DNA of 64,000 bases from Tulasnella sp. 424 (Eukaryota > Basidiomycota > Agaricomycetes > Cantharellales > Tulasnellaceae), in NCBI GenBank assembly GCA_019633425.1, contig WSUB01000024.1, positions 1 through 64,000 of the forward strand, in the 5' to 3' direction. Under the pieces are notes generated by a model that saw only the letters and a list, made by a program, of their open reading frames with translations, had not been told where the DNA came from and did not search any database. This document shows, piece after piece, positions 13,643-33,460 of the stretch. Positions within the stretch are counted from its first letter, which is position 1. Every line of letters starts with the position of its first letter. A program made the position numbers and the translations under genes.

Positions 13643-15478
13643 CTAAGCGTTGATGAGAGCAGTGTAAGCGGGCTTGGGCTGGAATGAGGCGTTGAAGAGG
13701 AGTGGGTTGCTGCTCGCCCTCCACGAGTCCTTGTCGGAGACACCCCAGACCTAAAAAGCAAATGGATGAGCTGCATGCAATAGTAAAGGAGTTGGTAGAC
13801 ACTCACAGTGACACCGACACACTTGGGAACCTTGCGGCAAGCGTTGTAAACGGCGAGATAGTCGGCAGGCGAACCCCCGACAATATCAAGCTCAGTGATC
13901 TGTGTTTTACAATAAGTAACGAGACCGCGCGTTCACAGCGTCAAAGATATAAACAGTTACTCACTGCGACTGTTTGATTCGAGGCCCCCGAGGTATATGA
14001 GATTAGAGAGCAGTACAATGTCGGAAACGTTTCGGTGTGTTTTAGACGTTTGGGGAATAGGAAGCGAAAGATCAGTGTCAAACCGAAATATCCTGCCAGA
14101 ACCTAACAGTACCTTCGGTAACGGGAGAGCTGGCAAGCTTCTGCAATGCACCGAGGACTCCTCCGGTTTGACCTGCAGACAAATGGGCTACGAACGGGGG
14201 AGACGGATCAACCTCCTACTTGGGGATGTGTCCAAGCTACCTACCCTGAGAGCCAATACCGTCAATCGGAACACCAGCATTAATTTTCTGGGTGACAAGG
14301 CTGACGAGACCGTTGACCTTGGCGTTGATGGAGTCAAGGTTGTAGTCTGGGGACAGGTGGTATTTGAGTGAGCATGGACACTCACGCGAACCACGTGGTA
14401 CCAGCTGACGCACCGTTAATGTAAAGCTTGGCGGACGGGTCAGCAGCATACGCAGTGTTGAAAGCAATATCGACGAAGGAGGTGCCGAGGAGGTTGGAGA
14501 AGACGGATGAACGAACGGTGCCATCTTCGTTGAACATCTCGTTGACGACGTCCCACTTGATGATCCTGCCCTTGTAGCGTGTGACGAGAGTATTGGCGTG
14601 GTTCTGAATGACAGTGGTCAAAGTGTTCTTGTCACCGATGGCAGAGACCCAGCTGGGGAGCTGTGAGTGCCACTGTGGACAGGGGGGTGCAAGGTTACCG
14701 CTTTCAGCCCGTGGAGAGTATCGGAAAGGGACGTATGACACGTACGACGAGAGTGTGGCCACGGATGAGCTTGCCGTTGGTAATGGCAAAGCTGACTAGG
14801 TAGTCGGCGCCACTGAAGCTGAAACTACCCCTGCTAGGTTCGCTGAAAACGCCCACCTGTCAGGAGCAAGTATTATGACGATAACGATGAGAGCGTACGT
14901 AGCATCCCATTTCATCGAGTTCTCAGGAGTGAGGGCACCGAAATCGTCCTTGACAACCTGGGCGCACTGGGCTTGGCTCAAAGTACCTTGATCACCGCAA
15001 GTACCCCAGTATTGCTTGCCGAGGGCCTTATACTTAGCGTCCAATGAGTTGGTGTTAGGGTTGGAGATAGTGCTGGTGCTGGTGCTGGGCGTAGTAGTGG
15101 TTGAGATGGATGGGTTTGTAGTCGTGGATGGGTTGCTGCTTCCAGGCAGGCACTACGACAGGTACAAAGTATTCAGTCTGTGCTAGAGGGGCTGCATGTT
15201 GCGACTCACCTGGCTGTACCATGCGTTACTATAGACGCAGGTGGATCCGGCGACGCACGTAGTCGCTGGTGGCCGTTGGAAGGATCAGCGATTCGGGATA
15301 CATCATAAAATGCAGATAATACTCACGCCCATTCCAGCCCTGTCCACCACATTGACCTATACGCACGGCAGTGTCAGGAAGGACCGGAGGATTCTGCCGA
15401 GGAGCACCAACCCCACAAAGGTGACTGGGCATTGATGCCCATAGCAAGCAAGGTAAGAAAAAGGGCTTCGGAGTACAT
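13643..15478 (-). CDS. GH10 endo-beta-1,4-xylanase with N-terminal CBM1, copy A
   Basis: Secreted xylanase. Signal peptide [18 protein letters not shown] from the ATG at 15478, then CBM1 ([29 protein letters not shown]), a Ser/Thr/Pro linker, and a complete GH10 domain: [33 protein letters not shown], acid/base glutamate in KWDVVNEMF, nucleophile in VAITELDI, and WGVSDKDSW near the end; stop at 13643. About nine introns. The nucleophile exon is reached through a 5-nt micro-exon at 13965-13969 (TCGCA). The first intron has a weak GTTGGT donor where the paralogues have GTAAGT or GTTAGT, so splicing may be less efficient. This is the most diverged of the four copies ([17 protein letters not shown]). 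Its promoter carries an inserted inverted-repeat element at 15644-16318. Confidence 0.9.
13965..13969 (-). other. 5-nt micro-exon, xylanase A
   Basis: Coding TCGCA between acceptor AACAG and donor GTGAGT. It completes Val and adds Ala before the nucleophile motif ITELDI. Without it the joined frame meets TGA within four codons. Confidence 0.8.
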
Positions 15479-24146: not shown

Positions 24147-26079
24147 TTACAAAGCGTTGATAAGAGCAGTGTAAGCAGGCTTGGCTTGGAATTGAGCGTT
24201 GAAGAGGAGTGGGTTGTTGCTCGCCCTCCACGAGTCCTTGTCGGAGACACCCCAGGACTAGAAAGCAAATGGATGAGCTGCCTGTGAGAGTAGAGGAGTT
24301 GGCGGACACTTACAGTGATACCGACGCACTTGGGAACCTGGAGGCAAGCATTGGAGATGGCGAGATAGTCGTTGGCCGCGGCATTGATGATATCGAGCTC
24401 AGTGACCTGGGTTTTCACAGTGAAGAGTGAGATCACGCGTCGACAGAGTAAGAGAGATAACCAATACTTACAGCGACTGTTTGTTTCGGGTTACACGAGG
24501 CATTTCAAGATCGGAGTGCAGTACGAAGCAGGAAGCGTTCCGATGCGTTTTACAAGTATTGACAAATAGGGAGTAAAACATCAGCGCCGAAGCCGAAATA
24601 GGCTGCAAGAGCCTCACATACCTTCAGTAACAGGAGCACTGGCGAGCTTCTGCAATGCAGCAAGGAACCCTCCAGTCTGGCCGGCGGACAAATGGGCTAG
24701 GATGGGGAAGGGAGGTCAACATCCTGCTGGGTAATGTACCCAAGCTACGTACCCTGGGAGCCAATACCGTCAATGGGGATACCGGCATTGACCTTCTGGG
24801 TGACGAGGTTGACGAGGCCATTGACCTTGCTGTTGACGGAGTCAAGGTTGTAGTCTAGGGATAGTGGGATTCGAGTGAGCATGGATGCTATGCGAATTAC
24901 ATGGTAGGAGTTGACGTACCATTGATGTAGAGCTTGACGCTTGGATCAGCAGCACGAGCAGCATTGAAAGCAATATCGACGAAGGAGGTGCCGAGGACGT
25001 TGGAGAAGACAGATGAACGAGTGGTGCCATCCTCGTTGAACATCTCGTTGACGACGTCCCACTTGGCGATCTTGCCCTTGTAGCGTGTAACGAGAGTAGT
25101 AGCGTGGTTTTGAATGACAGTGGTCAAAGTGTTCCTGTCATTGATGGAAGAGACCCAGCCGGGGAGCTGTGAGTGCCACTGTGGATGGGCACAAGATTAA
25201 CCGCGTCAGCCCGTGGAGACTATTGGAATGGACGTATGACACGTACGACGAGAGTGTGGCCACGAATGAGCTTGCCGTTGGTAGTGGCAAAGTTGACGAG
25301 GTAGTCAGCCCCACCGAAGCTGAAACCATTCCTGCTGGGTTCGCTGAAAACACCAACCTGTCAGGAGCAAGTATTATGGCCATAACGATGAGGACGTACG
25401 TAGCATCCCATTTCATCGAGTTCTCAGGAGTGAGGGCACCGAAATCGTCCTTGACGACCTGGGCGCACGCAGCCTGGCCCAAAGTACCTTGATCACCGCA
25501 AGTACCCCAGTATTGCTTGCCATGTGACTTGTACTTGGTGTCCAACGAGTTGGAATTGACCTTCGTAGTTGTGGTGGCCGTGGTGGTAGTCGACGTAGTA
25601 GTGGTAGGAGGGGGGGTTGTCACGGTCGTGATGGGTGTGGTTGTCGTGGTCGTTGCGTCAGTCGTGGTCGTTGCATCAGTCGTGGTCGTTGTGGTGGTGG
25701 TAGTGGTGGTAGTGGTAGTGGTGGTGGTTGGGTTGCTGTTTCCGGGCAAGCACTATGTCCATTGCAAAGTATTCAAGCTATGCTCGAAGGGTTGCATGTT
25801 GCGACTCACCTGGCTGTACCATGGGTTACTAAAAACGCAAGTGGATCCGGCGACGCAAGTAGTCGCTGGAGGCCGTTTGAAGGATCAGCGATTCGGGATA
25901 CATCATGAAATGCAAATAACACTCACGTCCAGTCCAGTACATTCCACCGCATTGACCTATACGCACGACAGTATTAGGAAGGATGGGAGGATTCTGCCAC
26001 GGGAACACTTACCCCACACCTGTGACTGGGCATTGATGCCCATGGCAAGCAAGGTAACAAGAAGAGCTTCGGAGTACAT
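24147..26079 (-). CDS. GH10 endo-beta-1,4-xylanase with N-terminal CBM1, copy B
   Basis: Secreted xylanase, start ATG at 26079 ([18 protein letters not shown]). CBM1 reads [31 protein letters not shown]. The linker is long and almost pure Thr (TTTT and TDATTTT units, about 25560-25735), then the GH10 domain with [12 protein letters not shown], acid/base in KWDVVNEMF, nucleophile in VAVTELDI, and WGVSDKDSW; stop TAA at 24147. Introns lie at the same places as in the paralogues, including the 5-nt micro-exon at 24472-24476 (TCGCT). The [11 protein letters not shown] segment differs from the AIGDKNTL of the others. The left flank is shared with the other copies only from about 23755, so it arose through a different event from C and D. 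No disabling change is seen. Confidence 0.9.
24472..24476 (-). other. 5-nt micro-exon, xylanase B
   Basis: TCGCT between acceptor AACAG and donor GTAAGT. Same phase and same encoded Val-Ala as in the other three copies. Confidence 0.8.
25560..25735. repeat. GGT/ACC-type microsatellite coding the Thr linker of xylanase B
   Basis: Nearly uninterrupted Thr codons on the minus strand, with TDA interruptions. The plus strand therefore shows a false poly-Val open frame. Confidence 0.85.
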
Positions 26080-27774: not shown

Positions 27775-29759
27775 TTACAAAGAGTTGATGAGAGCAGTGT
27801 AAGCGGGCTTGGGCTGGAATGAGGAGTTGAAGAGGAGTGGGTTGCTGCTCGCCCTCCACGAGTCCTTATCGGAGACACCCCAGACCTAGAAAGCAAACGG
27901 GTAAGCTGCCTGCAAGAGTAAAGGAGTTGGTAGACACTCACAGTAATACCAACGCACTTGGGAACCTGGAGGCAAGCGCTGGAGATGGCGAGATAGTCGG
28001 CAGACGCGGCATTGACGATATCAAGCTCAGTGACCTGTGTTTCGCAGTAATGAATAAGATCACGCGTCCACAGCGTAAAAGAGGTAAACGAATACTTACG
28101 GCGACTATTTATTTCAGGGCACCCGAAGTATTTTGAGATTAGAGAGCAATAAGAATGCGGAAGCATTTCGATCCGTTTGGGAAGTATTGGCAAATAGGTA
28201 GCGAAGGATCAGCGCCAAGCCGAAATTTATTGTAAGAACTCTCTCGTACCTTCAGTGACGGGAGTGCTAGCAAGCTTCTGCAATGCAGCAAGGAATCCTG
28301 AAGTCTGACCGGCGGACAAATGGCCTAGGATAGGAAGGGAGAAGGTCAAGATCCTGCTAGAGGATGTACCCAAGCTACCTACCCTGAGAACCAATACCGT
28401 CAATCGGGACACCAGCGTTGACCTTCTGGGTGACAAGGGTGACGAGGCCGTTGAGCTTGCTGCCGACGGAGTCAAGATTGTAGTCTGGGGATAGGTGGTA
28501 TCTGAGTGAGCATGAATGCTATGCGAACCACGTGGTATGAGCTGACGCACCATTGATGTAAAGCTTGGCGCTCGGATCAGCAGCACGAGCAGCGTTGAAA
28601 GCAATATCGACGAAGGTGGTGCCGAGGAGGTTGGAGAAGACGGATGAACGAACGGTGCCATCCTCGTTGAACATCTCGTTGACGACGTCCCATTTGGCGA
28701 GCTTGCCCTTGTAGCGTGTAACGAGAGTAGTGGCGTGGTTCTGGATGACGGTAGTCAAAGTGTTCTTGTCGCCGATGGCAGAGACCCAGCTGGGGAGCTG
28801 CGAGTGCCACTGTGGACGGGGTTGCAAGGTTAACGCTTTCAGCCTGCGGAGAGTATCGAAAAAGATGTATGCCACGTACGACGAGATTGTGGCCACGAAC
28901 GAGCTTGCCGTTGGTAGTGGCAAAGTTGACTAGGTAGTCGGCGCCACCGAAGCTGAAACTACCCCTGCTGGGTTCGCTGAAAACACCAACCTGTCAGGAG
29001 CAAGTATGTGACCATAACGACGAGGACGTACGTAGCATCCCATTTCATCGAGTTCTCAGGGGTGAGGGCACCGAAATCGTCCTTGACAACCTGGGCGCAC
29101 TGGGCCTGGCCCAAGGTACCTTGATCACCGCAAGTACCCCAGTATTGCTTGCCATGTGACTTGTACTTGGTGTCCAACGAGTTGGAATTGACCTTCGTAG
29201 TTGTGGTGGCCGTGGTGGTAGTCGACGTAGTAGTGGTGGTAGGGGGGCTTGTCACGGTCGTGAAGGGTGTGGTGGTCGTGGTAGTTGCGTCAGTCGTGGT
29301 CGTTGCATCAGTCGTGGTCGTCGCATCAGTCGTGGTTGTTGCATCAGTCGTGGTCGTTGTGGTAGTGGTAGTGGTGGTGGTGGTGGTGGTGGTGGTGGTG
29401 GTTGGGTTGTTGTTTCCGGGCAAGCACTATGCCAAGTACAAAGTATTCAAGCTATGCTCGAAGGGTTGCATGTTGCGACTCACCTGGCTGTACCATGGGT
29501 TGCTATAAACGCAGGTGGTTCCGGCGACGCAAGTAGTCGCTGGAGGCCGTTTGAAGGATCAGCGATTCGGGGATACATCATGAAATGCAGATAATACTCA
29601 CGTCCAGTGTAGTACGGTGCCATTCCACCGCACTGACCTATACGCACGGCAGTATTAGGAAGGATGGGAGGATTCTGCCACGGAACACTTACCCCACACC
29701 TGTGCCTGGGCATTGATGCTGATAGCGAGCAAGGCAGCAATAAGAGCTTCGGAGTACAT
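27775..29759 (-). CDS. GH10 endo-beta-1,4-xylanase with N-terminal CBM1, copy C
   Basis: Secreted xylanase, start ATG at 29759 ([18 protein letters not shown]). The CBM1 is altered: [11 protein letters not shown] has two extra residues and Tyr where the paralogues have a binding-face Trp (QGWNG, MYWTG, QQWTG). The Thr linker is the longest of the four, with TDATTTT units. The GH10 domain is complete, with [12 protein letters not shown], acid/base in KWDVVNEMF, nucleophile in VAVTELDI and WGVSDKDSW; stop at 27775. The introns around the micro-exon are 28105-28259 and 28035-28099. The catalytic exons are almost identical to copy D, so these two separated recently. It is flanked on both sides by GH79 fragments. 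Confidence 0.9.
28100..28104 (-). other. 5-nt micro-exon, xylanase C
   Basis: TCGCC between acceptor AATAG and donor GTAAGT. Flanking introns are 155 and 65 nt long. Confidence 0.8.
29195..29405. repeat. Microsatellite coding the Thr linker of xylanase C
   Basis: Minus-strand Thr codons with four spaced TDA units, longer than in copy B. Length differs strongly between the four copies. Confidence 0.85.
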
Positions 29760-31603: not shown

Positions 31604-33460
31604 TTACAAAGAGTTGATGAGAGCAGTGTAAGCGGGCTTGGGCTGGAATGAGGAGTTGAAGAGGAGTGGGTTGCTGCTCGCCCTCCACGAGTCCTTGTCG
31701 GAGACACCCCAGACCTAGAAAGCAAATGGATGAGCTGCCTGCAAGAGTAAAGGAGTTGGTGGACACTCACGGTGATACCAACGCACTTGGGAACCTGGAG
31801 GCAAGCGCTGGAGATGGCGAGATAGTCGGCAGACGCGGCATTGACAATATCAAGCTCAGTGACCTGTGTTTCGCAGTAATGAATAAGATCACCCGCCCAC
31901 AGCGTAAAAAAGATAAGCAAATACTCACGGCGACTATTTATTTCGAGGCACCCGAAGTATTTTGAGATCAGAGAGCAGTACCAAGGGGGAAGCATTTCCA
32001 TGCGTTTGGGAGTATTGGAAAATAGGTAGCGAAAGATCAGCGCGGAGCCGAATTTATTGTAAGAACTCTCTCGTACCTTCAGTAACGGGAGTGCTAGCAA
32101 GCTTTTGTAATGCAGCAAGGAATCCTGAAGTCTGACCGGCGGACAAATGGCCTAGAATGGGCAAGAAGAAGGTCAAGATTCTGCTAGGGGATGTACCCAA
32201 GCTACCTACCCTGAGAACCGATACCGTCAATCGGGATACCAGCGTTGACTTTCTGGGTGACAAGGGTGACGAGGCCGTTGAGCTTGCTGCCGACGGAGTC
32301 AAGATTGTAGTCTGGGGACGAGTGGAATCTGAGTGAGCATGAATGCTATACGAACAACGTGGTATTATCTGACGCACCGTTGATGTAAAGCTTGGCGCTC
32401 GGATCAGCAGCACGAGCAGCGTTGAAAGCAATATCGACGAAGGTAGTGCCGAGGAGGTTGGAGAAGACGGATGAACGAACGGTGCCATCCTCGTTGAACA
32501 TCTCGTTGACGACGTCCCATTTGGCGAGCTTGCCCTTGTAGCGTGTAACGAGAGTAGTGGCGTGGTTCTGGATGACGGTAGTCAAAGTGTTCTTGTCGCC
32601 GATGGCAGAGACCCAGCTGGGGAGCTGCGAGTGCCACTGTGGACGGGGTTGCAAGGTTAACGCTTTCAGCCTGCGGAGAGTATCGAAAAAGATGCATGCC
32701 ACGTACGACGAGATTGTGGCCACGAACGAGCTTGCCGTTGGTAGTGGCAAAGTTGACTAGGTAGTCGGCGCCACTGAAGCTGAAACTACCCCTGCTGGGT
32801 TCGCTGAAAACACCAACCTGTCAGGAGCAAGTATGTGACCATAACGACGAGGACGTACGTAGCATCCCATTTCATCGAGTTCTCAGGGGTGAGGGCACCG
32901 AAATCGTCCTTAACAACTTGGGCGCACTGGGCCTGGCCCAAAGTACCTTGATCACCGCAAGTGCCCCAGTATTGCTTGCCGTGTGCCTTGTACTTGGCGT
33001 CCAATGAGTTGGTATTGGGGCTGACAACAGTGGTGGTGGTGGTGGTCCCGCCGGGCGTAGTTGTCGTACCGATGGGTGGGGTTGTAGTGGTTGTGGTTGT
33101 AGTCGTGGTTGGGTTGCTGCTCCCGGGCAAGCACTACAAAAAAATGCAAAGAATTCAAGCTATGCTCGAAGAATTGCATGTTGCGACTCACCTGGCTGTA
33201 CCATGGGTTGCTATAAACGCAGGTGGTTCCGGCCACGCAAGTAGTCGCTAGCGGCCGTTTTAAGGATCAGTGGTTCAACCCATATCATAAAATGCAGATA
33301 GTACTCACGTCCAGTCCATTGCTGTCCGCCGCACTGACCTATACGCACGGAAGTATTAGGAAGGATTGGAGGATTCTGTCACGGAGCACTAACCGTATAT
33401 AGGTGATTGGGCATTGATGCCCATAACGAGGAAGGTCAGAATAAGAGCTTCGGAGTACAT
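31604..33460 (-). CDS. GH10 endo-beta-1,4-xylanase with N-terminal CBM1, copy D
   Basis: Secreted xylanase, start ATG at 33460 ([18 protein letters not shown]). CBM1 reads [30 protein letters not shown]; the donor of the first intron is GTTAGT. The linker is short and mixed ([15 protein letters not shown]), then a complete GH10 domain with SMKWDAT, acid/base in KWDVVNEMF, nucleophile in VAVTELDI and WGVSDKDSW; stop at 31604. The micro-exon is at 31929-31933. The upstream flank continues past the point where copies B and C are cut and resembles the flank of copy A, so D probably keeps the original promoter side. No disabling change is seen. Confidence 0.9.
31929..31933 (-). other. 5-nt micro-exon, xylanase D
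   Basis: TCGCC between acceptor AATAG and donor GTGAGT, as in the other copies. Confidence 0.8.

Follow-up and report, generated by a model that had tools for sequence, protein, structure and literature searches.

The 64,000-nucleotide (nt) stretch analysed here, positions 1 to 64,000 of contig WSUB01000024.1 of the basidiomycete Tulasnella sp. 424 (Agaricomycetes, Cantharellales; hereafter the window), carries four GH10 xylanase genes, A to D, on its minus strand, and in all four a spliced protein-to-DNA alignment places an internal exon of only 5 nt, TCGCN, immediately before the codons of the catalytic nucleophile. This exon would complete a Val codon, of which it holds the final two bases, and provide the whole Ala codon of the nucleophile strand, and it is very probably a constitutive coding micro-exon that has been kept by selection on the protein and not as a switch. 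The evidence consists of the gene structure, the uniqueness of the splice path, its conservation, and one transcript-like relative that contains both residues; judging from the genomic sequence, we infer that inclusion in Tulasnella sp. 424 is constitutive. The features concerned are as follows, with the aligner written for this analysis and applied to these genes only.

13965..13969, minus strand: 5-nt exon TCGCA of gene A (spliced alignment; sole path to complete VTEVAITE)
24472..24476, minus strand: 5-nt exon TCGCT of gene B (spliced alignment; path listing)
28100..28104, minus strand: 5-nt exon TCGCC of gene C (spliced alignment; path listing)
31929..31933, minus strand: 5-nt exon TCGCC of gene D (spliced alignment; path listing)
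13970..14112, minus strand: upstream phase-1 intron of gene A, 143 nt (spliced alignment)
13900..13964, minus strand: downstream phase-0 intron of gene A, 65 nt (spliced alignment)
24477..24621, minus strand: upstream phase-1 intron of gene B, 145 nt (spliced alignment)
24407..24471, minus strand: downstream phase-0 intron of gene B, 65 nt (spliced alignment)
28105..28249, minus strand: upstream phase-1 intron of gene C, 145 nt (spliced alignment)
28035..28099, minus strand: downstream phase-0 intron of gene C, 65 nt (spliced alignment)
31934..32076, minus strand: upstream phase-1 intron of gene D, 143 nt (spliced alignment)
31864..31928, minus strand: downstream phase-0 intron of gene D, 65 nt (spliced alignment)
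28250..28324, minus strand: 75-nt exon of gene C ending GAA-G; A, B and D have homologous 75-nt exons (spliced alignment)
27942..28034, minus strand: 93-nt exon of gene C starting GTC-ACT-GAG (V-T-E, with the nucleophile Glu); A, B and D have homologous 93-nt exons
expected mRNA junction sequence: GAAGTCGCNGTCACTGAG with the 5-nt exon included, GAAGGTCACTGAG with it skipped

These places are identical to those proposed in the initial annotation of the window, as are the consensus splice sites it described around each copy, with an AG acceptor and a GTRAGT donor in A to D. Two further genes of the assembly, C312 and C21, share the arrangement, so that an internal exon of 5 nt between AG and GT (the class considered being ≤30 nt with canonical splice sites) is present in six of six genes. 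The spliced proteins of all six contain both WDVVNE and TELD, the Glu residues of which we take to be the acid/base and the nucleophile, respectively. The gene C protein scores above the cut-off for GH10 (PF00331, 353.7 bits) and CBM_1 (PF00734, 44.5 bits) in a query with a shortened linker, and among solved structures it is matched best by endo-1,4-beta-xylanases, for example 4xuy and 1b30. By eye, short repeats make up the Thr-rich linker that connects CBM1 with GH10, and their number apparently differs between genes B and C (window positions 25570-25760 and 29200-29430).

Candidate splice paths were listed between fixed anchors, allowing GT-AG borders and either one or two introns, none shorter than 40 nt, and this gave 7 to 24 in-frame paths per gene across the six genes. 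Exactly one path in each of the six yields the complete VTEVA(V/I)TE and restores the nucleophile strand EVA(V/I)TELDI in full, always via the 5-nt exon, which bears out the earlier claim that the exon is needed for the V-A before the nucleophile; uniqueness is judged here by comparison with the product of the 5-nt path itself, and the motif in relatives lends it support. Further paths ending in xA(V/I)TE (two in A, one each in B and C21) use a different upstream donor and lose or change the residues before V-A; in one of the gene A paths, the same bases close a 128-nt exon. Single-intron solutions were rejected: only gene A, of the six, has one of the correct length, and its product, EGTITE, turns V-A into G-T. 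Treating the whole stretch as one intron, or as a nested intron, was likewise rejected, as both V-A and the frame are lost. A division of the upstream intron into two introns by a recursive splice site was also considered; in gene C, inspection by eye showed no AGGT within it.

Given the shortness of the exon, which is all that speaks for such an origin, a resemblance by chance, or a pseudogene intron in decay, has to be considered. In 4000 dinucleotide shuffles of the intron sequence per gene, an AG-TNGCN-GT arrangement with at least 40 nt on each side turned up at a frequency of 0.08-0.38%, falling to 0/4000 per gene once a strong donor was required; for 5-nt exons of any sequence followed by a GTRNG donor, the frequency was 0.9-1.6%. 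As the genes are paralogues, the shuffle results across genes are not independent trials. The catalytic domain also reads without stops in the six genes, and the exon is maintained in a highly diverged copy, C21, as described below. The presence of the exon at the same position in six genes refutes a chance or pseudogene origin, the probability of which we regard as next to nil.

The six exons read TCGCA (A), TCGCT (B), TCGCC (C and D), TTGCC (C312) and TCGCT (C21), so that both wobble positions vary and the encoded amino acids remain constant; the synonymous drift noted earlier in the window thus extends to the two genes outside it. C21 is the most distant of the six, with a fourfold-site identity to the other five of 0.48-0.53, and its upstream intron measures 260 nt, compared with 143-145 nt in the others, yet the exon, acceptor and donor are kept. 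Because the exon and its splice sites have been retained in C21 despite 48-53% fourfold identity, the protein sequence that the exon encodes is very likely under selection. In the five closer genes (pairs with C21 left out), the flanking introns rank lowest of seven, at mean pairwise identities of 0.79 and 0.78; the others are at 0.82-0.88 and the fourfold sites at 0.82. Paired with C21, the upstream intron reaches an identity of 0.70-0.76 in aligned columns, higher than most other introns, a value inflated by 117-129 gap columns. Overall, the alignments show no sign of conserved regulatory flanks around the exon.

The exon is flanked by a near-repeat, VTE-VA-VTE, which might be read as the trace of a duplication. 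Because E-V-A-I-T-E stands at that place in many listed relatives, the near-repeat is largely a feature of the protein instead, and it may be the reason that gene predictors merge both VTE copies.

Database models of these proteins bear directly on the splice path. The motif [VILC]A[VIFL]TE[LV]D[IV] is found in 113 of 120 proteins counted among the matches listed, and the seven without it (P0001, P0002, P0003, P0004, P0007, P0031 and P0041) are all Tulasnella predictions. Among the matches listed, eight Tulasnella models belong to the clade with the 5-nt exon; P0006 and P0012, the latter from T. calospora, read EVAVTELDI, and six do not. P0001, P0002 and P0004 read VTELDI and are shorter by five residues, P0003 reads EGTITELDI, P0007 lacks the following exon as well, and P0031, placed in the clade by its similarity to C21, is a run-on. 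Apart from the five gap positions in each, P0001 is identical to the spliced gene D (294/294) and P0002 to C312 (295/295) over the catalytic part. Separately, P0041, from Tulasnella sp. 417, has EISVYELDI where its relatives have EVAITELDI, which reflects either a mis-spliced model or an altered nucleophile region.

It could be argued that such models depict real splicing. The 93-nt exon would then be joined to a donor GT within GTTACTGAAG or GTCACTGAAG, for a protein with PVTELDI that is shorter by five residues; in gene A, use of a donor lying five bases further downstream would yield EGTITELDI. The VTELDI and EGTITELDI models have exactly these products, and the gene A path is present in the sequence. 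However, these paths break a motif that is otherwise kept in nearly all of the listed proteins, the donors inferred for VTELDI (GTTACT or GTCACT) are poor, and EVAVTELDI is intact in P0006, P0012 and the transcript-like P0005, which makes it highly improbable that they are the ones used. The difficulty probably lies in the 5-nt size, because 15-nt and 13-nt exons at the same strand in other GH10 genes of Tulasnella sp. 424 are correctly modelled in the sp. 424 records P0008, P0013 and P0024, the catalytic parts of which are identical to the spliced genes (298/298, 297/297 and 297/297).

P0005 (source lgn) is a protein of 385 residues that represents five member sequences on two contigs, the longest of 1861 nt. 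It is identical to the spliced C21 protein at 375 of 383 aligned residues, whereas the C21 gene spans 1946 nt with 10 introns, and it reads EVAVTELDI; that is, both residues of the 5-nt exon are present. A second lgn protein, P0267, is a C21-like open reading frame that runs from the exon edge into the next intron; therefore, at least some lgn proteins were called without splicing, and P0005 would be best explained as RNA of a close relative after splicing. It is unlikely to stem from intron-aware gene prediction on a genomic contig whose introns are shorter.

As for how so short an exon might be included, the downstream intron is 64-65 nt long in all six genes; five of the six have a full GTRAGT as its donor, with no U1 match on the exonic side. 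We propose that this short intron (65 nt in the window) would be recognised by intron definition and removed first, which would fuse the 5 nt to the 93-nt exon into one of 98 nt, and that the longer upstream intron would then be spliced to an exon of normal size. Under intron definition, it is the length of the intron that matters and not that of the exon, and a review has suggested this mode for exons too small for exon definition (PMC8624252).

Several observations weigh against constitutive inclusion as argued so far. The argument on splice order is weak: the last intron has a GTRAGT donor too (five of six genes) and does not vary in length (56 nt), and exonic U1 matches are likewise lacking for the intron at position 86. 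The 5-nt exon in the gene behind P0005, for which no species is given, is itself deduced from similarity to C21, and this gene may have shorter introns than C21, so that the length argument alone is no proof. Finally, the six listed Tulasnella models of the clade in which EVAVTELDI is absent could, in principle, represent other isoforms.

The initial annotation had further suggested that inclusion of the exon could act as an on/off switch. As it stated, skipping produces an immediate stop in A to D, with GAA-GGT-CAC-TGA in B, C and D and GAA-GAT-CAC-TGA in A, and an immediate TGA also results in C312. In C21, where Thr is encoded by ACC, skipping gives GHRIGHR and then a stop. The immediate TGA is a by-product of the ACT-GAG codon pair, because C21, with ACC for Thr, does not have it; a stop on skipping is in any case expected without regulation, because leaving out an exon whose length is not divisible by three shifts the frame. 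A protein ending of the skipped form was found in none of the 322 proteins among the matches listed from three database searches, a weak test given the 90% clustering and length limits. Micro-exons of the switch type usually lie between introns that are better conserved than the rest; here, in the five closer genes, the flanking pair is instead the least conserved of the seven.

A regulated switch, in which inclusion gives an active xylanase and skipping a truncated message under the control of carbon source or symbiotic state, would fit the truncation before or at the nucleophile in all six genes. The xylanase regulator Xlr2 of Trichoderma virens reportedly has a regulated micro-exon switch (PMC11121469), and the identity of the upstream intron in pairs with C21 exceeds that of most introns, though with the inflation by gap columns noted above. 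Against this stand the low conservation of the flanking introns among the closer genes, the loss of the immediate TGA in C21 and the missing skipped form (again a weak test), and we consider such a switch very unlikely. Nothing found supports regulation by the 5-nt exon, and the word "guards," used in the initial annotation for its relation to the nucleophile, implies a regulatory role that no result demonstrates. T. calospora is an orchid mycorrhizal fungus in which one study reports weak regulation of a GH10 gene and low expression of the family, findings with no bearing on splicing (PMC7247694).

The arrangement is only one of several in the GH10 family of this genome. A GH10 profile search of the 46.8-Mb assembly (448 contigs) gave 91 exon-level matches, from which 26 candidate genes were spliced, including the four of the window; the 35 matches obtained with the C-terminal portion of gene C as a second query all fell in already spliced genes. 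The earlier statement that all four GH10 xylanases have the exon therefore holds for the window and does not extend to the genome, where at least 17 further GH10 genes include two with the 5-nt exon and 15 of other structure. In eight sister genes (C161_a, C161_b, C390, C102 and C47_a to d), the strand is cut into a 15-nt exon (VAITE or VAVTE, with the nucleophile codon at its end) followed by a 13-nt exon, and in C422_a and C422_b it has no intron. A tree of 19 of the 26 spliced genes and 16 database proteins (leaving out the four C45 genes, C20, C47_b and C422_a, as well as P0031) unites the six 5-nt genes (100/100) and the seven included 15/13-nt genes (97/84). The aligner is unreliable for the C45 genes, C20, C335 (first and late exons), C412_b (one extra intron), C412_c (first exons), C412_d (at the nucleophile) and C422_a.

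Skipping of the 15-nt exon preserves the frame in all eight sister genes (loci L009 for C161, L012 for C390, L015 for C102 and L017-L020 for C47). One could imagine that two Tulasnella GH10 clades divided the nucleophile strand among tiny exons (of 5 nt in one clade, of 15 and 13 nt in the other) with regulated inclusion, such that skipping of the 5-nt exon would abort the protein and skipping of the 15-nt exon would leave an in-frame protein without VAITE, possibly a xylan binder or a symbiosis decoy, but we give this idea scarcely any credence. In a divergent GH10 clade, C335 (L021) and C412_a to c (L022), an intron interrupts the very codon of the nucleophile Glu (position 235, phase 1); therefore, intron positions crowd within about 10 codons of the nucleophile across the GH10 genes of the genome. 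At C45:44800-57800 (L010, L011), there are four GH10-like regions, three of which keep the acid/base motif as WDVVSEIF. In these four regions, where splicing is unreliable, a search for a T/S-E-x-D nucleophile motif around its expected position found none, and they are possibly catalytically dead xylanase relatives.

Tiny exons within conserved motifs are already known in fungi, plants and animals, and the GH10 case joins the constitutive kind. In Fusarium, CYP621A P450 genes contain a 1-nt exon (PMC12940212); as here, a tiny exon rebuilds a conserved motif of a fungal gene family and was found via out-of-phase exon ends, although that case is a 1-nt exon of an ascomycete P450 confirmed by RNA reads, whereas ours is a 5-nt exon of basidiomycete GH10 genes known from sequence. 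The P450 genes of Phanerochaete chrysosporium (PMC1184071) are, similarly, a basidiomycete family with very short exons and short introns, but belong to another enzyme class, and their shortest stated micro-exon is 6 bp. Xlr2 likewise ties a fungal micro-exon to xylan breakdown, yet it is a regulator with two glucose-dependent isoforms, whereas here the enzyme genes themselves are concerned, with no sign of regulation. The 4-bp micro-exon of human MPC1 (PMC9929638) is also constitutive and of a length that is not a multiple of three; set against it, the flanking introns of the GH10 genes are poorly conserved. In ten plants, 2,398 small micro-exons, most of them previously unannotated, have been described (PMC8831610); those of ≤15 nt resemble ours as conserved tiny coding exons missed by annotation, unlike ours in forming a genome-wide, RNA-based set instead of a single fungal enzyme family. 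Arabidopsis APC11 has a 1-nt exon (PMC4674806). No earlier report of a 5-nt exon in GH10 was found among the titles and abstract openings listed from the open-licence literature, and the excerpts of PMC4014442 and PMC3990503 contain nothing on such exons.

The GH10 micro-exon is a clean example of selection on a catalytic motif preserving a tiny exon across a long divergence of a gene family, and it accounts for the defective Tulasnella xylanase models in databases, which would mislead both the prediction of activity and cloning from predicted coding sequences. With the 5-nt and the 15/13-nt arrangements in one genome, Tulasnella sp. 424 offers a natural system for the splicing of very small exons in short-intron fungi.
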